Below, in pieces: positions 6,686-25,744 of a DNA stretch of 25,744 nucleotides. Each line of letters opens with the position of its first letter. Position 1 is the first letter of the stretch. The DNA lies in the IMG/VR virus record IMGVR_UViG_3300031569_000565, positions 1 through 25,744 of that record, one strand, 5' to 3'. The DNA comes from a virus. The translations under genes and the position numbers were made by a program. The notes under the pieces are model-generated. The model had not been told where the DNA came from. It did not search any database and saw nothing but the letters and a program-made list of their open reading frames with translations.

Positions 6686-7507
6686 ATGGACTATTATTCT
6701 ATACTAGGTGTTCCTAGAAACGCTTCTGAATCAGATTTAAAAAAAGCATACAAGCAAGCAAGTATGAAACACCATCCCGACAGGGGCGGTGATGCTGAAC
6801 AATTTAAAAAAGTTAGCGAAGCGTATGGTATATTAAAAGACCCACAAAAACGTGCGGCGTATGATAACCCCCAACGACAATATCATGCTAATACAGGTAA
6901 CATGCAAGGTGGTCATTCTTTTGACGATATATTTGCTAACTTTGGTTTCATGCGCCCTGGGCAACCGATGCGCAACAAAGACATGCGTATTGGATATAGA
7001 ATGTCATTTGCTGAAGTGTACACAGGATGTGCTGCAACAATTACATATAACTTACCTAATGGTCGTGGCGAAGTAATAGATGTAAAAATTCCACCTGGCA
7101 TGAAACACGGTGACACTGTACAGTTTCCAAACTACGGCGATGATAGTATACCCGGAATACCTAGAGGAACATTACAAGTACAACTAGCTATACCAACTCC
7201 TCATAAGTGGAAGCGAGACGGTGAACATTTGTATACTGAAGTAATTGTTGATATATTTGATTTGATTTTAGGTAAATCAGTAACGATACACACACCTGAA
7301 AATAAACAACTTGCTCTTACTGTTCCTCCAGGCACAAATAATGATGTTACCATGAATATAACCGGACACGGTCTGCCACGAGTAAATACCTATAACAACA
7401 GAGGGAATTTATATGTTAAGATTAAAGCAGTAACCCCTAAATTAACTAATGACGAATTAAGAAGGATAGAAGAGATTAAAAATGGAATTAATTTACGCAC
7501 CCAGTAG
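6686..7507 (+). CDS. DnaJ/CbpA-like J-domain co-chaperone
   Basis: The 273-residue protein has an N-terminal J-domain (about 1-62) with the HPD motif at residues 30-32, which stimulates Hsp70 ATPase, followed by a Gly/Phe-containing linker (about 70-92) and C-terminal client-binding domains. IPPGMKHGDTVQFPNYGDD and VPPGTNNDVTMNITGHGLP are the repeated PPG..G...I..G.G.P-type signatures of DnaJ C-terminal domains. It lacks the Cys-rich zinc domain, so it is a type B, CbpA-like protein; it is not HscB despite the nearby iscUA genes. It would work with host DnaK. Its 3' end overlaps the peptide deformylase gene by 26 bases. Confidence 0.92.
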   Translation: MDYYSILGVPRNASESDLKKAYKQASMKHHPDRGGDAEQFKKVSEAYGILKDPQKRAAYDNPQRQYHANTGNMQGGHSFDDIFANFGFMRPGQPMRNKDMRIGYRMSFAEVYTGCAATITYNLPNGRGEVIDVKIPPGMKHGDTVQFPNYGDDSIPGIPRGTLQVQLAIPTPHKWKRDGEHLYTEVIVDIFDLILGKSVTIHTPENKQLALTVPPGTNNDVTMNITGHGLPRVNTYNNRGNLYVKIKAVTPKLTNDELRRIEEIKNGINLRTQ

Positions 7508-7991
7508 TTGGCTTACAAAACAAGTTAAGCCGTTTGACTTTGATACAACTGACGCTATTCAAACAGCTCAGGAGATGGTTGACCTAATGGACCTACATAA
7601 AGGTATAGGCATTAGTGCTAACCAAGTTGGATTAGATGCACAAATTTTTGTAATGCGACCAACACAGCATAGCGAACTAAAAGAAGCATTTGCAGTTATT
7701 AATCCAGTGATACAAAAGATATCAGAAGAAACAGATTCAAAGTATGAAGGATGCCTAAGTTATCCTAATTTAATATTAAATGTCAAAAGACCAATTAAAT
7801 TGGTAACACAGTTTCTTGACGCAGACGCAAAAGAGTGTATAATAGTACTTGAAGGGTATGATGCAAGAGTATTCTTACACGAATACGATCACTTGCAAGG
7901 TATAGAATTTACCGATCGTGTTTCTAAACTAAAATTAGGAATGGCAATGAAAAAGAAAATTAAAAGAGAAAAAAGGTATATCAATGGTTGA
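7482..7991 (+). CDS. def: Peptide deformylase
   Basis: The 169-residue enzyme removes the formyl group from N-terminal Met of new proteins. All three family motifs are present: motif 1 GIGISANQVG (41-50, usual GxGxAAxQ, here with Ser-Ala in place of Ala-Ala), motif 2 EGCLS (89-93) with the metal ligand Cys91, and motif 3 HEYDH (133-137) with metal ligands His133 and His137 and catalytic Glu134. A Lys-rich tail follows. Phage deformylases are known from marine T4-like phages and are thought to help process abundant phage-era proteins. The gene overlaps the J-protein gene by 26 bases and the clpA-like gene by 8 bases. Confidence 0.95.
   Translation: MELIYAPSSWLTKQVKPFDFDTTDAIQTAQEMVDLMDLHKGIGISANQVGLDAQIFVMRPTQHSELKEAFAVINPVIQKISEETDSKYEGCLSYPNLILNVKRPIKLVTQFLDADAKECIIVLEGYDARVFLHEYDHLQGIEFTDRVSKLKLGMAMKKKIKREKRYING
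7816..7843 (+). promoter_or_regulatory. Possible internal sigma-70 promoter upstream of the clpA-like gene
   Basis: TTGACG (7816-7821) and TATAAT (7838-7843) are 16 bases apart inside the deformylase gene, 141 bases before the clpA-like start. One mismatch from consensus. It lies in coding sequence, so chance is a real alternative. Confidence 0.4.
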
Positions 7992-10230
7992 ACCGAGTCA
8001 AGAGTTACAGTTAGTATTTGATAAGTCGATTACAGATGCAAAGAAACTAAGACATGAGTATGTCACTATTGAACATTTATTGTTTAGTATGCTGTGCAGT
8101 GATCCGTTTTATGATGTTATAAAAGAGTATGGTGCTGATGTAGATTATATTAAATCTCACCTAGAGCATCATCTAAAAGAGAAGTGCGACGAATTAAAAA
8201 TTGAGTTAGCAAAATACAAACCTAAAAAAACGCAAGCCGTTGAAAGAGTTTTAAATAGAGCATTTACACAAGTACTATTTGCTGGACGTAATACTATTGA
8301 ACTAGTAGATGTTATGTTAAGTATTATGTCTGAAAAGAAATCTATTAGTAATTACTTTTTAGAGCAAAGCGGTCTTAAAAAAGATACATTTGCAGAATAC
8401 ATTAATGCAGAATTAGAAACAAGTATCGAAGACGAGGAAATGTCAGGCGAAGCACAACGTGCATTGAGACAGTTTACAACTGACTTAAATCAAGAAGTTG
8501 TAAAAGAAAAGATTGATCCTGTAATTGGTCGCGAGGCTGAGTTAGATACTATTGCACTTGCATTAGGCAGACGTAATAAAAATAACTGTTTACTTGTTGG
8601 TGATCCAGGAGTTGGTAAAACTGCTATTGCAGAAGGCCTTGCTTGGAATATTGTGCAAGGAACTGTTCCAGAGTTTTTAAAAGAATATAAAGTATTCATG
8701 TTAGACATTGGTAGTATGCTTGCAGGTAGTAAGTATCGCGGAGACTTTGAAGAACGCTTTAAATTAGTACTTGCAGGTCTTAAAGGCAAAGGCAAAACTA
8801 TTATGTTCATCGACGAAGCACATATGATTAGTGGTGCTGGATCAGGTGGTGGCGGTAATAGTGCAAATGATTTAGCTAACATGCTAAAACCAGCTCTTGC
8901 TAAAGGTAACATTAAAGTTGTTGCATCAACTACTTGGGATGAGTATCGCAAGTTCTTTGAAAAGGATCGTGCATTAATGCGTCGATTCCAACGTGTAACA
9001 GTTGACGAGCCTAGTCCAGAAGTTACTAAAGATATTTTACATGGTATTAAAAAGTATTACGAAGAGTTTCATAAAACTACTATTACCGACGAAGCTATTG
9101 CAGAAGCAATCAAATTAAGTGTTAAATATCAAAGTGATAAGAAATTGCCAGATAAAGCAATTGACTTAATTGATCTTGCATGTTCGAGATTTAATTTAAA
9201 GGAAGTTACAGGTGATAAAATTGTTGACGGTGCGGAAATACAGTTTGAACTTGCTAAAGTTATAAACTTACCTACAGAGCAAGTTGCTGAAAAAGAAACT
9301 GACAATCTTAAAAACCTTGAAAAGAACATCAAAGGTGATGTGTACGGCCAGGATAAAGCAGTCGAAGGCATTGTTGATAAGATACTAGTTGCACAAGCAG
9401 GATTAAAACCAGATGATAAACCTATTGGAGCATTTGTGTTTATGGGTCCGACAGGCACTGGTAAAACTGAAACAGCAAAATCACTTGCTAAACAATTAGG
9501 AGTAACACTTGTACGTTTTGATATGTCAGAATATCAGGAAAAGCACAGCGTTGCTAAACTAATTGGATCACCACCTGGTTACGTTGGTTACGACGAAAAC
9601 AACGGATTGTTAATTACTAAGTTGCAAGAAAATCCTAACTGTGTATTGTTACTTGACGAGATCGAAAAAGCTCATCCAGATGTTTCACAAATCTTGTTGC
9701 AAGTAATGGACAATGGCAAGCTGACAGGATCTAATGGTAAAGAAGCAGATGCACGTAACTGTGTACTAATTCTTACTACTAACTTAGGTGCTGCACAGGC
9801 TGAGAAAAACACTATCGGATTTAGTGATGATAGCGATAACTATTATGAAGATACTGAACTAAAGAGATTCTTTGCTCCAGAATTTAGAAATAGACTCGAC
9901 GGCATAATTACTTTTGATACTCTTGGTAAAGAAGTAATGATGAAAATTGTTGGTAAGTTCTTAGTTGAATTAAAAGCTCAGGTTAAAGGCAAGCAGGTTG
10001 ATATTACTATAAGTGATGAAGCACTTGATTACTTGGTAGAAAAAGGATTTAATAAAAAGATGGGTGCAAGACCATTACAGCGTGTGATTGATAAAGAGAT
10101 CAAACAACCGCTATCACGTCAGTTATTATTTGGCACACTAAAAGACGGTGGCAAATGTAAGATAGATGTGAACACTAAAGGAAAAGAATTGGTATTAGTA
10201 TATAATGAAAAAGAAACTATTACAGCATGA
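7984..10230 (+). CDS. clpA: ClpA-like AAA+ protein unfoldase
   Basis: The 748-residue protein has the full ClpA layout: a Clp N-domain (about 1-145), a first AAA+ module with Walker A GDPGVGKT (206-213), Walker B MFIDEAH (274-280) and a KYRGDFEER pore region (250-258), and a second module with Walker A GPTGTGKT (488-495), pore loop GYVG (532-535), Walker B LLLDEIEKAH (555-564) and sensor-2 MGARPLQRVI near the end. It has no ClpB-type middle coiled-coil, and its length is near that of E. coli ClpA (758). IGF at 611-613 lies where ClpA/ClpX carry the IGL/IGF tripeptide that docks on ClpP. No ClpP is encoded here, so it may recruit the host protease. It overlaps both neighbours. Confidence 0.94.
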   Translation: MVEPSQELQLVFDKSITDAKKLRHEYVTIEHLLFSMLCSDPFYDVIKEYGADVDYIKSHLEHHLKEKCDELKIELAKYKPKKTQAVERVLNRAFTQVLFAGRNTIELVDVMLSIMSEKKSISNYFLEQSGLKKDTFAEYINAELETSIEDEEMSGEAQRALRQFTTDLNQEVVKEKIDPVIGREAELDTIALALGRRNKNNCLLVGDPGVGKTAIAEGLAWNIVQGTVPEFLKEYKVFMLDIGSMLAGSKYRGDFEERFKLVLAGLKGKGKTIMFIDEAHMISGAGSGGGGNSANDLANMLKPALAKGNIKVVASTTWDEYRKFFEKDRALMRRFQRVTVDEPSPEVTKDILHGIKKYYEEFHKTTITDEAIAEAIKLSVKYQSDKKLPDKAIDLIDLACSRFNLKEVTGDKIVDGAEIQFELAKVINLPTEQVAEKETDNLKNLEKNIKGDVYGQDKAVEGIVDKILVAQAGLKPDDKPIGAFVFMGPTGTGKTETAKSLAKQLGVTLVRFDMSEYQEKHSVAKLIGSPPGYVGYDENNGLLITKLQENPNCVLLLDEIEKAHPDVSQILLQVMDNGKLTGSNGKEADARNCVLILTTNLGAAQAEKNTIGFSDDSDNYYEDTELKRFFAPEFRNRLDGIITFDTLGKEVMMKIVGKFLVELKAQVKGKQVDITISDEALDYLVEKGFNKKMGARPLQRVIDKEIKQPLSRQLLFGTLKDGGKCKIDVNTKGKELVLVYNEKETITA

Positions 10231-17072: not shown

Positions 17073-19742
17073 ATGAGCTACGTAGACGCATTCTTTGATC
17101 GCGACGCCGATATCATTCGAGCTGTTGAACGCAAAGATGGTAAAAGAATTTACCGTGAATATCAATCTAAATATACATTTTTTTATAAAGACCCTAGGGG
17201 CAAGTACAAAAGTGTATACGGTGATCCCCTAAGTCGTATTGTATGTAAGAGTACAAAAGACTTCCGCAAAGAAGTTGCTATTAACAGAGACAAAGAACTG
17301 TTTGAAAGTGACATTAATCCTATTTTTCAATGTTTGAGTGATAACTATCTTAACGCAGATGCACCTAAACTAAACGTTGCATTTTTTGATATTGAGACCG
17401 ACTTTGATCCAGAACGTGGCTTTGCTGATCCTAGTGATCCGTTTATGCCTATTACAAGTATTAGTGTATACTTACAGTGGCTCGACACTATGATATGTAT
17501 TGCTGTACCTCCAAAGACACTTACTATGGAGCAAGCACGTAAAGAAGTTGAAGGCATAGACAATGTAATGCTAGTTGAAAAAGAAAGTGAAATGATTGAT
17601 ACTTTCTTAACACTTATTGAAGACAGTGATGTACTTAGTGGATGGAACAGTGAAGGATATGATATTCCATATACTGTAAACAGGACTAGTCGTGTACTAA
17701 GCAAAGACGACACACGTAGATTCTGCTTGTGGGGCCAACTTCCTAAGAAGCGTATGTACGAGAAGTACGGCAAAGAAAGCCAAACGTTTGACTTAGTTGG
17801 GCGTGTACACTTAGATAGTTTGAATTTGTATCGCAAGTACACCTACGAAGAGCGTCACACATATCGACTAGATGCTATTGGCGAGATTGAGGTAGGTGAA
17901 AACAAAGTTGAATACGAAGGCACACTTGATCAATTATACAACAACGACTTCCGTAAATTTATTCAATATAACATTCAAGATACAGCACTACTTGATAAAC
18001 TAGATAAGAAACTACGCTTTATTGACTTGTCTAACACTATTGCACACGAGAACACAGTTCTTATTCAAACTACAATGGGCGCTGTTGCTGTTACAGAACA
18101 AGGCATTGTTAACGAAGCTCACCATAGAGGCTTACAAGTTCCTAATCGACAAAGACGTGATGACGAAAATACACAAGCGGCTGGTGCATATGTAGCATTT
18201 CCTAAGAAGGGCTTGCACAAATGGATTGGTTCAATGGATTTGAACTCACTATATCCGTCAGTTATTCGTGCATTAAACATGGCGCCAGAAACTGTTATTG
18301 GACAAATACGTCCAGACATTAGTGATGCTCGTGTACACGAAGACATGTTCTTAAAGAAGAAGAGTTTTGCTGGTAGTTGGGAAGGACGCTTTAGTACAGA
18401 AGAATATGAAGCAGTTATGGAACAGCGTAAAGATGTTGCGCTAACCATTGACTGGGAGAGCGGGGGCAGTGACGTTCTAAGCGGTGCTGAAATTTATAAA
18501 GCAGTGTTTGATAGTCATCAACCCTGGATGCTTAGTAGTAACGGTACTATTTTTACTACAGAGTTTGAAGGTGTTATTCCAGGTATTTTAAAACGTTGGT
18601 ATGCTGAACGTAAAGAGATGCAGAAGAAGCTAAAGAAAGCTAAGGACGCCGGCAACTCAGCAGAGATTGAGTATTGGGATAAGCGACAGCTAGTTAAGAA
18701 GATTTTGCTTAACAGTTTGTATGGTGCAATTCTTAATCCAGGTTGTAGATTCTTTGACAAACGTATCGGACAAAGTACAACACTAACAGGACGTACTATT
18801 GTTAAGCATATGAGTGCAGAAGTTAACAAGACTATTACAGGTGTTTATGATCACACAGGTGATGCAATGATCTATGGTGATACTGACTCATGTTACTTTA
18901 GTGGTTATCCTATTCTCAAAGAGCAAATTGACAATGGTTCTATTCCTTGGGATAAGGACAACGTAATTACACTATATGATCAAGTATGCGAAGCGGCTAA
19001 TGAAACTTTTCCAAAGTTTATGATGGAAGCATTTCATTGTCCAAAGAGTAGATCAGACGTTATTGCAGCGGCTAGAGAAATTGTAGCACAGTCAGGGTTG
19101 TTTATTACTAAGAAGCGTTATGCAGCACTAGTGTATGACATTGAAGGCTTTAGAACAGATGTAGACGGCAAAGCAGGTAAAGTAAAAGCAATGGGCTTGG
19201 ACTTGCGTAGATCAGATACTCCCGTGTTTATGCAAGAGTTCCTAAGTGAGCTATTGCTTATGGTGCTTACTGACAAGCCGCAAGAAGATGTACTAGAACG
19301 TATTACTGTATTCCGTAAGGAGTTTAGTGAGAGGCCTGGTTGGGAGAAAGGTAGTCCGAAACGTGCAAACAAAGTCGGACACTATCAACGACTTGAAGAA
19401 AAGCAAGGCAAAGCAAACATGCCTGGACACGTTAGAGCAAGTATTAATTGGAATACACTCAAACGTATGAATGGTGACAAGTACTCGCAAGAAGTTGTAG
19501 ACGGCATGAAGGTCATTGTTTGTAAACTAAAACAAAATCCACTAGGGTATACAAGTGTTGCGTATCCAACAGACGAGTTACGTATTCCTGATTGGTTTAA
19601 AGAGTTGCCATTTGATGATATAGCTATGGCAGAAACTATTATTGATAACAAACTAGACAACTTGATTGGAGTTCTTAACTATCCACTAGAAGATACTAAG
19701 AGGCATAATACGTTTTCAAGTTTGTTTGACTTTGGAGAGTAA
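17073..19742 (+). CDS. 43: Family-B DNA polymerase, gp43 type, with proofreading exonuclease
   Basis: The 889-residue protein is the phage replicative polymerase. The 3'-5' exonuclease motifs are seen: Exo I FFDIETDFD (Asp106, Glu108), Exo II WNSEGYDIPY, Exo III YNIQDTALLDK. The polymerase motifs follow: A with DLNSLYPS beginning at Asp389, B KKILLNSLYGA, and C YGDTDS at 601-606 with the two catalytic Asp. The length is close to T4 gp43 (898 residues), so the gene is intact and has no intein. ATG 17073 is chosen because AAGGAG lies upstream; an in-frame TTG at 17046 would add nine residues with no ribosome-binding site. It is followed directly by the sugar-nucleotide genes instead of the T4 order. 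Confidence 0.98.
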   Translation: MSYVDAFFDRDADIIRAVERKDGKRIYREYQSKYTFFYKDPRGKYKSVYGDPLSRIVCKSTKDFRKEVAINRDKELFESDINPIFQCLSDNYLNADAPKLNVAFFDIETDFDPERGFADPSDPFMPITSISVYLQWLDTMICIAVPPKTLTMEQARKEVEGIDNVMLVEKESEMIDTFLTLIEDSDVLSGWNSEGYDIPYTVNRTSRVLSKDDTRRFCLWGQLPKKRMYEKYGKESQTFDLVGRVHLDSLNLYRKYTYEERHTYRLDAIGEIEVGENKVEYEGTLDQLYNNDFRKFIQYNIQDTALLDKLDKKLRFIDLSNTIAHENTVLIQTTMGAVAVTEQGIVNEAHHRGLQVPNRQRRDDENTQAAGAYVAFPKKGLHKWIGSMDLNSLYPSVIRALNMAPETVIGQIRPDISDARVHEDMFLKKKSFAGSWEGRFSTEEYEAVMEQRKDVALTIDWESGGSDVLSGAEIYKAVFDSHQPWMLSSNGTIFTTEFEGVIPGILKRWYAERKEMQKKLKKAKDAGNSAEIEYWDKRQLVKKILLNSLYGAILNPGCRFFDKRIGQSTTLTGRTIVKHMSAEVNKTITGVYDHTGDAMIYGDTDSCYFSGYPILKEQIDNGSIPWDKDNVITLYDQVCEAANETFPKFMMEAFHCPKSRSDVIAAAREIVAQSGLFITKKRYAALVYDIEGFRTDVDGKAGKVKAMGLDLRRSDTPVFMQEFLSELLLMVLTDKPQEDVLERITVFRKEFSERPGWEKGSPKRANKVGHYQRLEEKQGKANMPGHVRASINWNTLKRMNGDKYSQEVVDGMKVIVCKLKQNPLGYTSVAYPTDELRIPDWFKELPFDDIAMAETIIDNKLDNLIGVLNYPLEDTKRHNTFSSLFDFGE

Positions 19743-19743
19743 A

Positions 19744-20460
19744 ATGAATCATTTTATATTTGATGTTGACGGCACACTTACCCCTAGTAGGAAGAAAATA
19801 AATCCTCAATTTGCATTGTGGTTTTTATATTTTTCGCAAAACAATACAGTAAGTTTAGTTACAGGAAGTGATAACCCTAAAACGCTTGAACAGATTGGTC
19901 CTGAAATTTGTATGAGTGTAAACAAGATTTATAATTGCAACGGCAACGATGTATGGTATCGACAAGAGAATGTTTACACTAATCCTTGGAAGATGACCGA
20001 CGAACTTAAAGAATTTCTTAATGCTGAACTTAAAAATAGTGAATACACAATTAAAACCGGCAAGCATTTAGAAGAACGGCCGGGCATGGTTAACTTTAGT
20101 GTTGTGGGGCGTAATGCAGATAAAGTACAACGCAAAGATTACTTTTACTATGACATAGAAGCCGACGAACGCATACACATTGCTGAAAGGATCAACAAAC
20201 ATTTTCCTAATGTAAGTGCAGTGGTTGGTGGCGAAACCGGTATTGACATTATTGCTAAAGGTAAAGACAAGCGTCAAGTGCTGCAGGAAATACAAAAAGA
20301 TAGAGTATTCTTCTTTGGCGATAGAATGGACCCAGACGGCAACGATTTTAGTCTTGCATATGCTGTAAAAGAAGCAGGCGGTGTTGCAAAACAAGTTAAA
20401 AGTTGGAGAGACACAAAAGAAATTTTAGAAAATTTCCAACAAAGGGGGATAGCAAATTGA
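19744..20460 (+). CDS. Phosphomannomutase-like HAD-family protein
   Basis: The 238-residue protein belongs to the HAD superfamily (Cof/PMM branch) and resembles eukaryotic-type phosphomannomutase. Motif I FDVDGTLTPSR carries the two Asp and a Thr-x-x-Arg. LVTGSD is motif II. LEERPGMVNFSVVGRN matches the PMM cap signature (R.GM.N.S..GR). The end GDRMDPDGNDFSLA matches PMM's GD...GGNDFEI metal-binding region. It could interconvert mannose-6-P and mannose-1-P, or be a sugar phosphatase. ATG 19744 lies right after the polymerase stop, with GGAGAG before it. The neighbours (cupin, cytidylyltransferase, epimerase) support a sugar-nucleotide pathway. Confidence 0.83.
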   Translation: MNHFIFDVDGTLTPSRKKINPQFALWFLYFSQNNTVSLVTGSDNPKTLEQIGPEICMSVNKIYNCNGNDVWYRQENVYTNPWKMTDELKEFLNAELKNSEYTIKTGKHLEERPGMVNFSVVGRNADKVQRKDYFYYDIEADERIHIAERINKHFPNVSAVVGGETGIDIIAKGKDKRQVLQEIQKDRVFFFGDRMDPDGNDFSLAYAVKEAGGVAKQVKSWRDTKEILENFQQRGIAN

Positions 20461-20786
20461 AATACAGTGATTGGGATATTGGCGGCAAGGTTGTTAAAGA
20501 AGATGCACGTTATGTTGTTAAAGACAATACTGATCTAAGCAACCTTGTAGTGAGTAGTACGCATTTAAATGCAGGTAAAAGTACAACAGGTCACCGGCAT
20601 GCCGGGCAAGAAGAAGTCTATGTCTTTGTAGGCGGTAGTGGACAGATGGAGCTTGATCATAAAATATTTGATGTTACAGCAGGCGACACTGTACTAATCC
20701 ACGACAACGTATTTCACAGAGTACACAACAACACAGACGTTGGTTTAAAGTTTATTTGTGTATTTGATGGAAGGAGAGAACATTGA
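20457..20786 (+). CDS. Single-domain cupin, sugar-phosphate isomerase-like
   Basis: The 109-residue protein has both cupin motifs: motif 1 GHRHAGQEEVYVFVGGSG with metal ligands His46, His48 and Glu52 or Glu53, and motif 2 GDTVLIHDNVFHRVHN with His87. The size and HxH...E arrangement resemble small sugar-phosphate isomerase or mannose-6-phosphate isomerase C-terminal-type cupins. I chose the TTG start at 20457, which overlaps the previous stop (TTGA) and follows an AAGGGGG ribosome-binding site; the upstream in-frame TTG at 20403 would overlap 58 bases of the preceding gene. Within this four-gene unit it may epimerise or isomerise a sugar phosphate. Substrate is not known. Confidence 0.85.
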   Translation: MKYSDWDIGGKVVKEDARYVVKDNTDLSNLVVSSTHLNAGKSTTGHRHAGQEEVYVFVGGSGQMELDHKIFDVTAGDTVLIHDNVFHRVHNNTDVGLKFICVFDGRREH

Positions 20787-21187
20787 AAGTAGGATTTACT
20801 TGTAGCACGTTTGATTTATTACATGCTGGACACGTAATTATGTTGCGTGAAGCAAAAGAACAATGCGATTATTTAATTTGCGGATTACAGGTAGACCCTA
20901 GTGTTGATCGCAAAGACAAGAACGCACCCATACAAACAGTAGTTGAACGCTATACTCAACTAAAAGGTGTAGAGTATGTAGATGAAATTATTCCGTACGG
21001 AACTGAAGAAGACTTAGAAGATATCCTTAGTATGTATCCAATAGAAGTACGCATACTAGGAGAAGAGTATCGCGACAAAGATTTCACAGGTAAAGACATT
21101 TGCCGCAAGCGTGACATCGAATTACACTTTAACAAAAGAGACCACCGTTTCAGTTCAAGTGATTTAAGGAATCGAGTTAATGCATAG
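20783..21187 (+). CDS. TagD-like cytidylyltransferase
   Basis: The 134-residue protein fits the glycerol-3-phosphate cytidylyltransferase (TagD) / HldE-like group: GFTCSTFDLLHAGHV has the nucleotide-binding HxGH at residues 14-17, and FSSSDLRNRV near the end corresponds to the family's STSxIRxRI-type motif. The length equals that of TagD (about 130). The reaction would be CTP (or another NTP) plus a sugar or polyol phosphate giving an activated NDP-compound. The start is TTG overlapping the cupin stop (TTGA), with an AAGGAG ribosome-binding site. It overlaps the epimerase gene by eight bases. It gives the cassette its activating step. Confidence 0.87.
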   Translation: MKVGFTCSTFDLLHAGHVIMLREAKEQCDYLICGLQVDPSVDRKDKNAPIQTVVERYTQLKGVEYVDEIIPYGTEEDLEDILSMYPIEVRILGEEYRDKDFTGKDICRKRDIELHFNKRDHRFSSSDLRNRVNA

Positions 21188-21932
21188 AATATTATTAACA
21201 GGCCATAAAGGATTTATTGGTACACATTTACTAAACAGACTATTAGAAACAAAAGACAGAGTAGTAGTTGGTATTGACCTACAAGACGGACTTGACTTAT
21301 GTGATGTAGAGTTTTCAGAAGAGTTTGATTTAATTATACATCTAGCAGGCAAAAGTGGAGTTCGAGAAAGTACAAACGATCCTGCAGGCTATTGGCGTAA
21401 CAATGTTGAAGCAAGCAAGCGTCTGTTTGAACGCTACAGAGATACACGTATACTATACGCAAGCAGTTCCAGTGCTTACGAGCCCGATTTGAACCCTTAT
21501 GCGGCGTCTAAGTACATAGTCGAAGAAGCTGCTGAACGTTATGCTGATACACTAGGCATGCGGTTTCATACCGTTTATTCAGACACTCCACGCAAAGGCA
21601 TGTTCTTTGACAAACTATTTAATGGTGGACTAGAATATGTAACAGATCACTATAGAGACTTTATACACATTGAAGATTTATGCGATGCTATTGAGCTTTG
21701 TATGAAAAGCACGTATACAGGCACTATTGATATAGGCACGGGTACTCCATATAAGATCCGTGATTTTGCAGACAACTTGCCTATCCGCCTAAATACACCA
21801 CATGAACGACAATGGACTTGTGCGAACATGGAAAAAATTAAGACTTTGGGCTTTAAACCTAAATATAATATAGAAAAGTACTTGACAAACGGTCATAAAG
21901 ATAATATAATAAAACTTAACATAGGAGAATAA
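21180..21932 (+). CDS. NAD(P)-dependent epimerase/dehydratase (extended SDR)
   Basis: The 250-residue protein has the SDR signature features: the nucleotide-binding TGHKGFIGTHL near the N-terminus, DLIIHLAGKSGVRES (the family's HLAA-type segment), ASSSSAYE with the catalytic Ser, and YAASK with Tyr and Lys of the active site. A FIHIEDLCDAIELCM segment matches the usual substrate-domain region. It is shorter than UDP-glucose 4-epimerase (about 340), so it is a minimal or divergent sugar-nucleotide epimerase or dehydratase. It is the last gene of the cassette; the sigma-70 promoter of the clamp gene lies inside its 3' end. Confidence 0.88.
   Translation: MHRILLTGHKGFIGTHLLNRLLETKDRVVVGIDLQDGLDLCDVEFSEEFDLIIHLAGKSGVRESTNDPAGYWRNNVEASKRLFERYRDTRILYASSSSAYEPDLNPYAASKYIVEEAAERYADTLGMRFHTVYSDTPRKGMFFDKLFNGGLEYVTDHYRDFIHIEDLCDAIELCMKSTYTGTIDIGTGTPYKIRDFADNLPIRLNTPHERQWTCANMEKIKTLGFKPKYNIEKYLTNGHKDNIIKLNIGE
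21883..21910 (+). promoter_or_regulatory. Sigma-70 promoter for the sliding clamp gene (TTGACA-16-TATAAT)
   Basis: TTGACA 21883-21888 and TATAAT 21905-21910, both perfect, with a 16-base spacer. Transcription would start near 21917, just before the GGAG and ATG of the clamp gene. It lies inside the end of the epimerase gene, so clamp expression can be independent of the cassette. Confidence 0.75.
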
Positions 21933-21933
21933 C

Positions 21934-22668
21934 ATGAAAGACATCTTACAAGACGTAGTCGCAAAAACACACTCGCTGGGATTCCTCAGCTTAGTTAAAG
22001 TAACGGGTGGCGAAACTACTACATTTGAATCAATGGCCGAGGATCGGTCAGTGATACTTACAGCAGAAACAACTTCTAATGTTGCATCTGGTACATTTGG
22101 TATGCCTAACTTAGATAAGTTAGCATTGCACTTGAAGAATCCAGAGTATCAGAAAGATGCTAAGATCGATGTTGTGCAAGCAGAACGCAATGGCGAAACT
22201 ATTCCTACGCATATTCACTTTGAAAATGCAGCAGGCGATTTCCAAAACGATTACCGTTTTATGAATCAGCAAATTATTGATGAAAAACTTAAAAGTGTTA
22301 AATTTAAAGGTGCAAGCTGGGACGTAACATTTAATCCGCATGTTGCTAGTATTACAAGAATGAAACTGCAAAGTGCAGCACATTCCGAAGAACCTACGTT
22401 TAACGTAAAAACTGTAAAAACAGGCGATGCAACTGATCTTGTGTTTAGCTTCGGTGATCAAAGCACACACGCAGGCGAGTTTGTATTCCAGTCTAATATA
22501 GAAGGTTCGTTGTCGCATACTTGGGCTTGGCCTGTAGCACAAACACAGTCAATTTTAAGTCTTGGTGGTGATATTACAATGAGCATTAGTGATCAAGGTG
22601 CTATGCAAATTACAGTTAACAGTGGTTTAGCTACATACAATTATATTCTTCCAGCGCAGAGTAAGTAA
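21934..22668 (+). CDS. 45: Sliding clamp DNA polymerase accessory protein, gp45-like
   Basis: The 244-residue protein looks like the T4 gp45 clamp, a trimeric ring that holds polymerase on DNA and also activates late transcription. The end ISDQGAMQITVNSGLATYNYILPAQSK-type pattern (beta-strands closing with a short tail) and the N-terminal KDILQDVVAKTHSLGF helix fit gp45 proteins of marine T4-like phages. The length is near that of T4 (228). A GGAG ribosome-binding site precedes ATG 21934, and its own strong sigma-70 promoter is upstream. Clamp-loader genes 44 and 62, next to gene 45 in T4, are not next to it here. The stop overlaps the next gene (TAATG). Confidence 0.85.
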   Translation: MKDILQDVVAKTHSLGFLSLVKVTGGETTTFESMAEDRSVILTAETTSNVASGTFGMPNLDKLALHLKNPEYQKDAKIDVVQAERNGETIPTHIHFENAAGDFQNDYRFMNQQIIDEKLKSVKFKGASWDVTFNPHVASITRMKLQSAAHSEEPTFNVKTVKTGDATDLVFSFGDQSTHAGEFVFQSNIEGSLSHTWAWPVAQTQSILSLGGDITMSISDQGAMQITVNSGLATYNYILPAQSK

Positions 22669-24227
22669 TGAATAAAGACCTTACAGAAGCGCAACAAGAT
22701 TACGCACATTTCTTACCTGCACTTAGTGGCTTCTATGCAACTTATGTGGGCAAGCAACGTTATCCTGATCCTGTAACTGGTCCGTATGTTTCTGATGATC
22801 GTATGCCTAAAAACTTTGCAAATGGCATGGAAAGTCTTAACTATCTTAACTCCAAAGAAGGAGCATTTACATACAAGTGGACGCTTTACTCTGCAGGACA
22901 TGCTGAATTAGACACTACTAAGTTTAGCCCTAAGGAAGATATGATCCGTAATAGAGATCGTGATAATACTTGGGCACTAGGCGATAGTGGTGGTTTTCAA
23001 ATTGGTAAAGGTGTTTGGGAAGGCGATTGGAAAGATCCTAATTGTCCTAAAGCACAGCAAAAACGTGATAGTGTTTTGCGTTGGATGGATGCTTACATGG
23101 ACTATGGTATGATACTTGATATTCCAGCTTGGGTTGCACGTTCACCAGCAGGTGCAAAGGCAACTGGTATTAGTACATATCAAGAAGCTGTGAAAGCAAC
23201 ACGTATTAACAATGACTATTGGATGAAGCATAGAACAGGTGCTTGTAAGTTCCTTAACGTATTGCAAGGTGAGAATCATGCAGACGCCGATGACTGGTAT
23301 GAGCAAATGAAAGACTATTGCGATCCAGTCAAATATCCAGACAATCACTTTAATGGGTGGTCAATGGGTGGTCAGAATATGTGCGATGTGCATTTGGTTC
23401 TTAAACGTATAGTTTCATTGCACTATGATGGACTACTACAAAGCGGTATACACGATGTAATGCACTTCTTAGGCACATCTAAGCTAGAATGGGCTACGTT
23501 ACTTACAGACGTACAACGAGCTGTACGTAAGTACTATAACCCTACTATGATGCTTACATTTGACTGTGCTAGTCCATTTTTAGCAACTGCTAATGGACAA
23601 GTATATACATCAGTTGAAACACCTGATAGAGGTAAATGGACCTATCGAATGGTGCCTAGTGTGGACGAACTAAAGTATGCAACTGACACTCGAGGATTTA
23701 AAGACGCTACACTACAAGACGGTATCTTTAATACATTTGAAGATAGTCCATTAACTGACGGATTATTAGTTAACGATATTTGCACGTATTCAGTCGGTGA
23801 TACTAATAAAATTGGTACTATTAAAGTACTCAAAGGCGATGTTGACTTAGACAAAGAAGGTAATCCTTTGCTAGATGCAGATGGTAACACAACTGTACGT
23901 GGCAGGGACTCAACGAGCTGGGATAGCTTTAGTTATGCTATTCAGATGGGCCATAACGTATGGACACACATTAATGCTGTACAAGAAGCTAATAGACAGT
24001 ACGATGCAGGCGTTATACCTAAGATGCTTGTAGACGAAAAGTTTGATCGTATTCTATTTAGAGATGTTGTTGAAGAGATTTTTTCAAAGACAACTCGAGA
24101 AGAGTCTATGAAGGTTATTGATAGTTATTCAAAGTTTTGGATGGCCATTCCAGGAACACGTGGTGCTATTGGTAAGAAGACTGTGAATGCTAGTACCACC
24201 TTTGGCAATTTATTCGAGGAGATATAA
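22668..24227 (+). CDS. dpdA: DpdA-like 7-deazaguanine DNA transglycosylase (TGT superfamily)
   Basis: The 519-residue protein carries the tRNA-guanine transglycosylase core: GDSGGFQ (Asp106-Gln111, TGT's general acid region), LNVLQGE (Gln200), GWSMGG (substrate-binding Gly-Gly), and TFDCASPFLATANGQVYT, matching TGT's FDCxxPTRxARxGxxFT with the putative nucleophile Asp299. The CxCxxC zinc site of bacterial TGT is missing. That combination fits DpdA, which exchanges guanine for a 7-deazaguanine in DNA. It is longer than bacterial TGT (about 375), with the extra sequence C-terminal. Being next to the sliding clamp and a QueD-like gene, it probably modifies phage DNA and protects it from restriction. 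A tRNA role cannot be excluded. Confidence 0.8.
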   Translation: MNKDLTEAQQDYAHFLPALSGFYATYVGKQRYPDPVTGPYVSDDRMPKNFANGMESLNYLNSKEGAFTYKWTLYSAGHAELDTTKFSPKEDMIRNRDRDNTWALGDSGGFQIGKGVWEGDWKDPNCPKAQQKRDSVLRWMDAYMDYGMILDIPAWVARSPAGAKATGISTYQEAVKATRINNDYWMKHRTGACKFLNVLQGENHADADDWYEQMKDYCDPVKYPDNHFNGWSMGGQNMCDVHLVLKRIVSLHYDGLLQSGIHDVMHFLGTSKLEWATLLTDVQRAVRKYYNPTMMLTFDCASPFLATANGQVYTSVETPDRGKWTYRMVPSVDELKYATDTRGFKDATLQDGIFNTFEDSPLTDGLLVNDICTYSVGDTNKIGTIKVLKGDVDLDKEGNPLLDADGNTTVRGRDSTSWDSFSYAIQMGHNVWTHINAVQEANRQYDAGVIPKMLVDEKFDRILFRDVVEEIFSKTTREESMKVIDSYSKFWMAIPGTRGAIGKKTVNASTTFGNLFEEI

Positions 24228-24228
24228 A

Positions 24229-24396
24229 ATGGCTTTGCGTCCTAAAAAGAAAAACTTAGAAAGACTTAAAAAGATGCACGAACATTTACACGGTGTAATA
24301 GAAAAGTCTGAAAAAGAACGTGCTAATGAAATGGAAGTACAGCAATTAAAAAAAGAAAAACTGGCAATTAAGGATCAATTAAAAAATGAAACGTGA
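24229..24396 (+). CDS. DUF465/YdcH-like small helical protein
   Basis: A 55-residue, highly charged helical hairpin. LERLKKMHEHLHGVIEK and LKKEKLAIKDQLKNE match the pattern of the DUF465 (YdcH) family, which has a His/Leu-containing first helix and LKKEKLxLKDxI in the second. No function is known to me. ATG 24229 is chosen for its GAGGAG ribosome-binding site eight bases upstream, rather than an earlier in-frame TTG inside the dpdA-like gene. Its end overlaps the next gene by 11 bases. It lies between two genes of the proposed DNA-modification block. Confidence 0.75.
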   Translation: MALRPKKKNLERLKKMHEHLHGVIEKSEKERANEMEVQQLKKEKLAIKDQLKNET

Positions 24397-24907
24397 TTAC
24401 GACACAGGCGAAGCAAACGACATCATCTTCTTTACAGGTGTAGAAGTTGAAAAGACTCCTGCGTTTGGAATGAAGACATTGTTTGTTACTGGCACACAGG
24501 ACTACAACGAGATAATGAAGTTCTACAAAGAAGAACAGTGCGAACATATCTTCTTTGGTGCTAATCACAGTTATAAGCCAGTTACTTCAGATGAGTTTGA
24601 AGACTGGGATCTAATGATCCGTGCGTTTACAGATCAAGGTATCTTATGCAGTTTAGACATTCCAAGTACTATTAACCTTGAATGGTTCTTAGACGGCGGT
24701 CTAACTGAGGTAGATAACTTTATTCCGCAACTTCGTGTTGTGGTTCCTTATGTTAAACAGTGGAACTACAACACAATGATTAAAATTGACGATAAAGATT
24801 TTAAAGCAACTAATCCAGGTGTTTGGTGCCATAGCCTGCATGAGTTGATGGACCGTAATAAATTTACGGATTGGAACAATTATGGCCTTGACAAAGTAAT
24901 CAAATGA
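24386..24907 (+). CDS. Conserved marine phage protein of unknown function, in the modification block
   Basis: The 173-residue protein has no motif I can name. Characteristic segments are FFTGVEVEKTPAFGMKTLFV near residues 15-34, HIFFGANHSY, CSLDIPSTINLEWF, and IKIDDKDFKATNPGVWCHSL at about 132-151. The alternating short beta-strands and helices suggest an alpha/beta or TIM-like fold. I recall close relatives in marine T4-like phages near the same kind of gene. It has no CxxxCxxC and so is not QueE. It lies between DUF465-like and QueD-like genes, so a role in base modification or partner binding is possible but unproven. Confidence 0.78.
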   Translation: MKRDYDTGEANDIIFFTGVEVEKTPAFGMKTLFVTGTQDYNEIMKFYKEEQCEHIFFGANHSYKPVTSDEFEDWDLMIRAFTDQGILCSLDIPSTINLEWFLDGGLTEVDNFIPQLRVVVPYVKQWNYNTMIKIDDKDFKATNPGVWCHSLHELMDRNKFTDWNNYGLDKVIK

Positions 24908-24916
24908 AAGTATACT
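24888..24916 (+). promoter_or_regulatory. Sigma-70 promoter (TTGACA-17-TATACT) before the QueD-like gene
   Basis: TTGACA 24888-24893 and TATACT 24911-24916 with a 17-base spacer; one mismatch. The predicted start of transcription, about 24923, coincides with an in-frame ATG, so translation from that ATG would be leaderless. This favours the downstream ATG 24983. Confidence 0.7.
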
Positions 24917-24982
24917 AGTACTATGACAAATGAAGCTTATTATGATTATATGCTACGTAGAACAAGAGAAGAAGACGATAAA

Positions 24983-25372
24983 ATGACAACACAACAAGCA
25001 AGCAGAAGTGTATGGGTTACCTTTCGTAAAGAAGGTGTACATATGTACCCAGGCGCAGACACTGATCCTAAACTAGCAACAGGCGAATGGGATGATGTAT
25101 CATTCCTAGGCATTCCGCATCGTCATATTTTCCATTTTAAAGTTCGCATCGAAGTGTTTCACAACGATCGCGATATTGAGTTTATTCAGTTTAAACGCTG
25201 GATGGAACGGTTGTATGCACAAGATGTAATACAACTGAATCACAAGTCATGTGAGATGATCGCAGATGATTTGTACCAAGAAATTTCTACAAAATACCCA
25301 AGCCGGTTTGTAGAAATTGATGTCGCCGAAGATGGCGAAAACGGCTGTTCAATTTTTTATCCTAAAAACTAA
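24983..25372 (+). CDS. QueD/PTPS-like T-fold protein, atypical
   Basis: The 129-residue protein aligns by eye with 6-carboxytetrahydropterin synthase (QueD), which makes the precursor of 7-deazaguanines. PHRHIFHFKVRIEV corresponds to QueD's HGHxFxVxLxI, IEFIQFKRWMERLY to its DFxxLK helix, LNHK to LDHxYLN, SCEMIADDLYQEIS to TSExLAxWIW, and VAEDGENGCSIFY to VxETxxxGCxY. The first metal His may be in EGVHMYPG. The catalytic Cys just before HGH in QueD is absent, so the chemistry may differ. ATG 24983 is preferred because the promoter's predicted transcription start falls at the upstream ATG (24923); that start would add 20 poorly conserved-looking residues. Confidence 0.65.
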   Translation: MTTQQASRSVWVTFRKEGVHMYPGADTDPKLATGEWDDVSFLGIPHRHIFHFKVRIEVFHNDRDIEFIQFKRWMERLYAQDVIQLNHKSCEMIADDLYQEISTKYPSRFVEIDVAEDGENGCSIFYPKN

Positions 25373-25392
25373 TGCTATTAAAGGAACATAAA

Positions 25393-25587
25393 ATGGCTAA
25401 CTTCAATCGGGAAGCATACAATAAAGTATTTGATGACCTAGATAAGTTTAAAGACTACTGTAGGTTCGAAGCTAAACCGTATGACGAAAAGAGTCTTTAT
25501 AAGAAAGGCGATCGAATCTGGGAAAGTTATCTTTCTTGGCAAAAATACCAAGGTCGGCAACAACGTCGGGCAAGGAACGGAAATTGA
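25393..25587 (+). CDS. Small conserved phage protein
   Basis: A 64-residue polar protein (NFNREAYNKVFDDLDKFKDYC at the start, a basic QQRRARNGN at the end). I believe similar short proteins occur in marine T4-like phages, but I know no function. ATG 25393 is chosen over 25372 because AAAGGA lies about 8 bases before it; 25372 overlaps the previous stop. The many aromatic and charged residues suggest a small folded helical domain. Its stop overlaps the next start as TTGA. Confidence 0.68.
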   Translation: MANFNREAYNKVFDDLDKFKDYCRFEAKPYDEKSLYKKGDRIWESYLSWQKYQGRQQRRARNGN

Positions 25588-25744
25588 TTTATATTGTAGA
25601 CATTGAAGCAGTTGACTCACGCTATACTAAGCAATGGAAAGAGTATCTTCCTAAACAACTGCAACGAGCTACAAACGAAGACGTCACTGTAATTAGTGGC
25701 GGAGAAGTACCTCAGGCTACAACGCCTGGGGCATTTCTTAACTT
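25584..25744 (+). CDS. Start of a conserved phage protein, runs off the window
   Basis: From TTG 25584 (overlapping the preceding stop as TTGA) an open frame continues to the window end, 53 codons. It begins MIYIVDIEAVDSRYTKQWKEY and contains VTVISGGEVPQATTPGAFLN. Beginning with a beta-strand and an ISGG loop suggests a Rossmann-like or GT-B-type N-terminal domain; I recall similar proteins in marine T4-like phages. Too little is visible to name the family. If it proves to be a glycosyltransferase it would fit the sugar-nucleotide cassette and the DNA-modification block. Confidence 0.6.
   Translation, partial: MIYIVDIEAVDSRYTKQWKEYLPKQLQRATNEDVTVISGGEVPQATTPGAFLN

Follow-up and report, generated by a model that had tools for sequence, protein, structure and literature searches.

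Modification of DNA with deazaguanine is already known as a kind. The transglycosylase DpdA2 was defined in Vibrio phage nt-1, whose virion DNA holds dPreQ0 (PMC6884629), and QueC converts 7-carboxy-7-deazaguanine (CDG) to preQ0 (PMC13329287); a deazaguanine system has also been predicted in Pseudomonas aeruginosa phage PA5oct (Iyer et al. 2021, PMC7824862). Here we analyse the viral record IMGVR_UViG_3300031569_000565, a genome fragment of 25,744 bp from a marine phage that was studied in its entirety (the window), and describe a variant of such systems that is new; it lacks QueC and is linked to a glycosyltransferase (GT). The genes in question encode a DpdA-like protein (DpdAx), a protein with the fold of QueD (QL), a partner protein (P3) and the GT. 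We think it likely that they form the first half of a system that modifies DNA with 7-deazaguanine after replication and branches off before preQ0, the sugar step being left out of that estimate; only tentatively do we propose that, in at least six phage lineages and some bacterial chromosomes, the GT-QL-DpdA triad puts QueC-independent 7-deazaguanine in DNA and glycosylates it.

DpdAx, a 519-residue protein (22668..24227, + strand), carries the motifs DSGGFQ (residues 106–111), VLQGE (198–202), GWSMGG (230–235), HFLG (266–269) and TFDCASPF (297–304). D106 and D299 lie at the positions of the acid/base and nucleophile aspartates of the TGT superfamily, and each is Asp in all 56 non-redundant DpdAx relatives; both are also kept in the bacterial homologues, except for one truncated copy. 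The CxCxxC zinc site is absent from the window protein and from 56/56 relatives. A preliminary description of this DNA had reported both the TGT catalytic pattern and the missing zinc site and had assigned the protein to the DpdA type; both features were borne out, and profile comparison agrees with the assignment, giving a relation to DpdA2 and no Pfam TGT match. In particular, hhalign placed DpdAx against DpdA2 with the motifs in register (E 3e-7, or 2e-8 with larger alignments; 0.18–0.48 for unrelated control pairs involving DpdAx), and a hidden Markov model (HMM) built from 17 diverse DpdAx members and run against whole phage genomes found the DpdA2 of ACP17 (E 9e-10) and of nt-1 (E 1.7e-4), each time inside the DpdA2 gene. 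The same HMM gave no match in CP220 or HVTV-1, a result that speaks neither for nor against identity with DpdA3 or DpdA4; hhalign of DpdAx against the DpdA of phage 9g yielded nothing, as did a search of viral contigs with the PA5oct DpdA as query. The window protein matched no family of Pfam, NCBIfam or PADLOC and no informative PHROG, and a sequence search of the PDB with the four module families gave no informative match. As judged from its sequence, then, the 519-residue protein is a divergent DpdA, related to DpdA2. At least 599 stretches of this family were found in viral contigs, and among the isolated phages that carry it are two jumbo phages of P. aeruginosa, PA5oct and Paride (36% identity), as well as Sinorhizobium phage Phosso and Vibrio phage 2.275.O; in the last, genes for QueF, QueC, FolE and a transporter of the YhhQ type are found near DpdAx.

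The open reading frame (ORF) of QL (149 residues; 24923..25372, + strand) starts 696 bp past the end of that of DpdAx. QL has no match to Pfam PTPS (6-pyruvoyltetrahydropterin synthase). AlphaFold2 models it as a T-fold (pLDDT 93.5) that comes closest, among PDB structures, to 6-pyruvoyltetrahydropterin synthase (VIA-align Z 11.8) and E. coli QueD (Z 10.7), with a Foldseek E of 5e-5, and hhalign gives E values of 3e-5 to 5e-5 against QueD profiles as opposed to 0.12 against FolE. In QueD, three histidines bind zinc, a glutamate anchors the pterin, and the catalytic residues include Cys27 and the Asp70-His71 pair. The counterparts of the zinc histidines (H40, H66 and H68) and of the anchor glutamate (E136) are each kept in all 69 QL sequences, but where E. 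coli QueD has its catalytic Cys27, 69/69 carry leucine (L62), and the Asp70-His71 pair has no counterpart. Canonical QueD is encoded elsewhere in seven records (marine contigs G001, G004 and G008, and phages PA5oct, Phosso, 2.275.O and RHph_I1_18) and adjoins the module in ACP17, BUCT-ZZ01 and phiST. With the catalytic cysteine and Asp-His pair lost and separate canonical QueD genes present, QL is ruled out as the QueD of the pathway. Of the earlier proposal that the protein at 24923 resembles QueD and supplies a precursor, the first part stands and the second does not: as modelled, QL has the fold of QueD and not its function.

A CDG decarboxylase named DpdL is said to have been described by Cui et al. 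in 2023, in phages with 2'-deoxy-7-deazaguanine. QL presumably fits that description, and it is probably this enzyme. In the gene context that goes with DpdL, QueC is absent and FolE, QueD, QueE and DpdA are present, as found for QL; what we take to be the DpdL type, with FolE-QueD-QueE, no QueC and an extra enzyme acting on CDG, appears to include phiST and further phages that carry QL. We know of no glycosyltransferase in the QueC-less DpdL phage pathways (dDG/dCDG). Two further forms of QL were seen. In Vibrio phage Bakedbeans (L232:5227-6378) and Chryseobacterium phage MA9V-3 (L237:5398-6279), QL is fused to an N-terminal domain of about 200–260 residues, and in Streptomyces sp. NEAU-Y11 (L295, L296) a distant relative stands beside PTPS and FolE genes, in what could be a 7-deazapurine natural-product cluster.

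The neighbourhoods of these genes were surveyed in 72 distinct QL loci, each flanked by no less than 4 kb upstream and 6 kb downstream. DpdA was present in 65 of them (DpdAx in 61, DpdA2 in 4, both together in none), GT in 69, FolE in 63, QueE in 62, P3 in 60, QueD in 8 and QueC in none; the idea of a deazaguanine module, put forward earlier, is thus strengthened by the linked synthesis genes of the relatives (FolE 63/72, QueE 62/72). The usual order is clamp, DpdAx, P3, QL, GT, FolE, QueE. ACP17 has a cluster in the order QueD, FolE, P3, DpdA2, GT, QL, QueE, and the homologues in PA5oct are ordered DpdAx, GT, QL, QueE. Because DpdAx and QL recur side by side across dozens of independent viral contigs, their pairing is not a matter of chance, and because two DpdA subfamilies occur in the same gene set, the genes appear to work together. 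Of 11 large marine relatives, 10 encode FolE, and the identity of QueE was confirmed (phrog_2076, E 2e-52). In relatives, FolE and QueE lie 1–6 kb beyond the point at which the window contig stops, so they are missing from the window because the contig ends first. Where the pathway had been described as incomplete, the folE and queE gap is therefore an artefact of the contig end, but the lack of QueC is real.

That lack was examined in 21 records. Full-length QueC (E <1e-50) was found in all 6 QL-negative records and in 0/15 QL-positive ones, and the weight of the exclusion falls on the latter figure because the QL-negative records were partly chosen as known QueC phages. Two QL-positive records, X1 and D479, gave only weak, partial QueC matches, and marine contig G003 gave a weak match inside its radical-SAM cluster. 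QueC is genuinely missing from QL-bearing systems.

The gene content and synteny, the folds and profiles, the residues kept and lost and the absence of QueC point to a candidate pathway whose substrates and order of steps would be as follows. FolE, canonical QueD and QueE, whose genes would lie just past the contig end or in another part of the genome, would produce CDG. QL would then stand in for QueC and convert CDG, most likely removing its carboxyl group to give 7-deazaguanine; because QueC is absent and normally converts CDG, action of QL on CDG in its place is the simplest reading. DpdAx would use its two aspartates to swap guanine in phage DNA, its presumed target, for the product base, and the adjacent GT-B enzyme might add a sugar from a nucleotide sugar made by the host or the phage. 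DNA so altered may evade restriction. Several points weigh against this pathway. When DpdAx is compared by hhalign with no more than E. coli Tgt, the register is right but the score is marginal (E 0.002); the choice of QL-negative records leaves only the QL-positive half of the QueC comparison unbiased; and six QL phages without GT are also without a detectable DpdAx or Pfam-TGT gene. The decarboxylated base, moreover, lacks an obvious oxygen or nitrogen at its C7 position to receive a sugar, which leaves the chemistry unclear should the base be what the GT acts on; the link could be a C-glycoside or made at N2, or else, should QL prove to be something other than a decarboxylase, a carboxyl ester.

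The sugar step is also where the strongest alternative arises. The GT gene (25584..25744, + strand) is cut by the contig end after 53 residues, which match PA5oct EST35_0317 and indicate a GT-B (GT4-like) enzyme; full-length relatives have about 350 residues, with the GT4-type R, EK and E residues conserved, and Pfam Glycos_transf_1 matches the homologues in X1 (E 8e-12) and BUCT-ZZ01 (E 3e-6) over the cut-off and window-type members below it. Upstream of the clamp, all on the + strand, lie genes for a phosphomannomutase-like HAD enzyme (19726..20460; PMM E 2e-24), a cupin that is possibly a sugar isomerase (20403..20786; Cupin_2 E 9e-12), a sugar-phosphate nucleotidyltransferase (20783..21187; CTP_transf_like E 2e-14, phrog_7878) and an NAD-dependent sugar epimerase/dehydratase (21180..21932; Pfam Epimerase E 4e-24), present within 6.5 kb of DpdAx in 46, 20, 55 and 52 of 58 loci, respectively. 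These genes, of which the first and the last two are possible sugar-donor genes, could make the donor sugar. GT and sugar genes might instead serve the glucosylation of 5-hydroxymethylpyrimidine or a change of surface polysaccharide against rival phages, being neighbours of the module by chance or co-regulation, a proposal that we regard as quite possible, if somewhat doubtful, and that bears on no step but the addition of the sugar, leaving the remainder of the pathway as proposed. Clusters of cupin, nucleotidyltransferase and GT genes in jumbo cyanophages have indeed been ascribed to polysaccharide modification (Iyer et al. 2021, PMC7824862), and QL is also found without GT. Against a separate purpose, GT adjoins QL in 69/72 loci, with two DpdA subfamilies, in six phage lineages and on bacterial contigs, and no more than a few genes separate the two in marine phages, PA5oct, Phosso, ACP17, X1 and BUCT-ZZ01; GT is weakly present in PhiXhv-15 and absent from 9g, nt-1, 2.275.O and six QL phages. 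Furthermore, the thymidylate synthase/hydroxymethylase family (PF00303) is absent from the complete genomes of ACP17, X1 and BUCT-ZZ01, which weakens the case for the GT as a 5-hydroxymethylpyrimidine glucosyltransferase. In the QueC-bearing phage 2.275.O, the gene after DpdAx (L003 11723-12835), in the place held by GT in PA5oct, encodes what may be an amidoligase (Amidoligase_2 E 2e-4, slightly short of the cut-off), perhaps for a different decoration of the base.

A second alternative, which we consider improbable, keeps to the preQ0 route: the QueD-like protein would be QueD itself, the host would provide QueC, and DpdA would insert preQ0 or a derivative. A protein of QueD fold does adjoin DpdA, and the queuosine pathway is often host-encoded (PMC6884629). 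However, QL lacks the catalytic cysteine and Asp-His pair of QueD, seven of the fuller records have a separate canonical QueD, and none of the 15 QL-positive records has full-length QueC, though FolE, QueD and QueE are phage-encoded. That DpdAx acts on tRNA, in a queuosine-like manner, is very improbable: it has the catalytic residues of the TGT superfamily, and a takeover of tRNA modification in the host is conceivable, but the zinc site is found in 0/56 relatives, Pfam TGT gives no match, and DpdAx stands closest to DpdA2, the enzyme of phage nt-1, in whose DNA dPreQ0 occurs.

Returning to the proposed 7-deazaguanine system, the remaining ORFs between DpdAx and GT differ in how far they belong to it. 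The preliminary description had named the proteins at 24229, 24386 and 25584 as partners, and the latter two do recur with the module, but the first, a DUF465-like coiled-coil ORF of 55 residues (24229-24396), is shared by only 6 of the 84 DpdAx loci and is ruled out as a module part. A small ORF of 71 residues (25372..25587, + strand), between QL and GT, occupies the same place in 68/84 loci. The protein at 24386 is P3 (173 residues; 24386..24907, + strand), a homologue of which lies immediately upstream of DpdA2 in ACP17. The P3 model (pLDDT 92.3) matched no PDB chain below E 0.001 in Foldseek, and its best viral match was the ACP17 homologue. Against B. subtilis QueE it scored Z 6.0 over 125–131 residues, tied with STAS and other folds, this alignment being among the longest of the top structural matches; hhalign of P3 against QueE gave E 0.017. 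The iron-sulfur cysteine motif of QueE, CxxxCxxC, is absent from 63/63 P3 sequences, and profiles of QueC, GT, DpdA and QueD showed no relation to P3. As a lead only, the model suggests that P3 possibly has a cysteine-free QueE-like fold and would be a QueE relative without the cluster. A 'glycosylase' of Phosso was tested as a P3 homologue and showed no relation.

Immediately upstream of DpdAx lies a putative sliding clamp (21934..22668, + strand; 31% identity to the annotated sliding clamp of Phosso; phrog_12062, function unknown), which is a syntenic neighbour and not a modification gene. Farther upstream, the window encodes a ClpA/ClpC-type ATPase (7984-10230; phrog_4871, E 1e-249) and a DnaJ chaperone (6686-7507). 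Among the large marine relatives, G001 (L048), G002 (L021), G005 (L020), G006 (L062), G007 (L057), G010 (L053) and G011 (L074) each encode 11–17 radical-SAM proteins, an extraordinary number for a virus; the genes are mostly clustered over about 20–40 kb and perhaps serve sugar or natural-product chemistry.

A scan of 84,980 species genomes gave 22 QL loci, several of which are marine and look viral, having the entire phage gene order. The GT-QL-DpdAx triad, often with a PTPS/QueD gene, also occurs on contigs of Magnetospirillum (L283, L285, L286, L288 and L292), Aurantimonas (L282), Methylobacterium (L290) and others, within loci L282-L294. Its neighbours there are of bacterial type: in M. 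aberrantis, two-component and HEPN genes with a CoiA-like nuclease upstream; in Aurantimonas, a GGDEF-EAL protein; and in Methylobacterium, a RecD2-like helicase. The bacterial triad is likely a chromosomal island; a prophage remnant or a plasmid is possible. A further conserved family of about 190 residues was seen near the triad in eight bacterial loci (for example L286:15756-16346).

The module is very common in marine phages, and it reveals a QueC-free branch of the pathway together with a DpdA clade that Pfam, NCBIfam, PHROGs and PADLOC all fail to recognise. We found no report of sugar-decorated 7-deazaguanine in DNA in the literature searched; if the sugar step is true, it would be a new class of DNA hypermodification, the deazaguanine counterpart of the glucosylated hydroxymethylcytosine of T4, and the bacterial triads would be candidate self-marking or defence islands. 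The PA5oct/Paride group of jumbo phages, which infect P. aeruginosa, gives a laboratory-ready setting for testing these ideas, and the module may also bear on the resistance of such phages to nuclease-based defences.

Comparison with known systems sets the module apart at several points. QueD (6-carboxytetrahydropterin synthase) has the T-fold, the three zinc histidines and the anchor glutamate in common with QL, whereas QL is without its catalytic cysteine, its Asp-His pair and a Pfam PTPS match. The DpdA2 module of nt-1 (Hutinet et al. 2019, PMC6884629) shares FolE and a homologous DpdA of the TGT superfamily without the zinc motif, but has QueC, lacks QL and GT, and goes with DNA containing mainly dPreQ0. 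PA5oct shares homologous DpdAx, GT, QL and QueE, in order, with the window module; in the passages found on it (PMC7824862), neither QL nor the GT nor the lack of QueC is given special mention. The alpha- and beta-glucosyltransferases of T4 belong to a different family and modify 5-hydroxymethylcytosine in place of the presumed deazaguanine, and the likeness, limited to a possible way of working, is that they too are GT-B enzymes beside a phage base-modification pathway.

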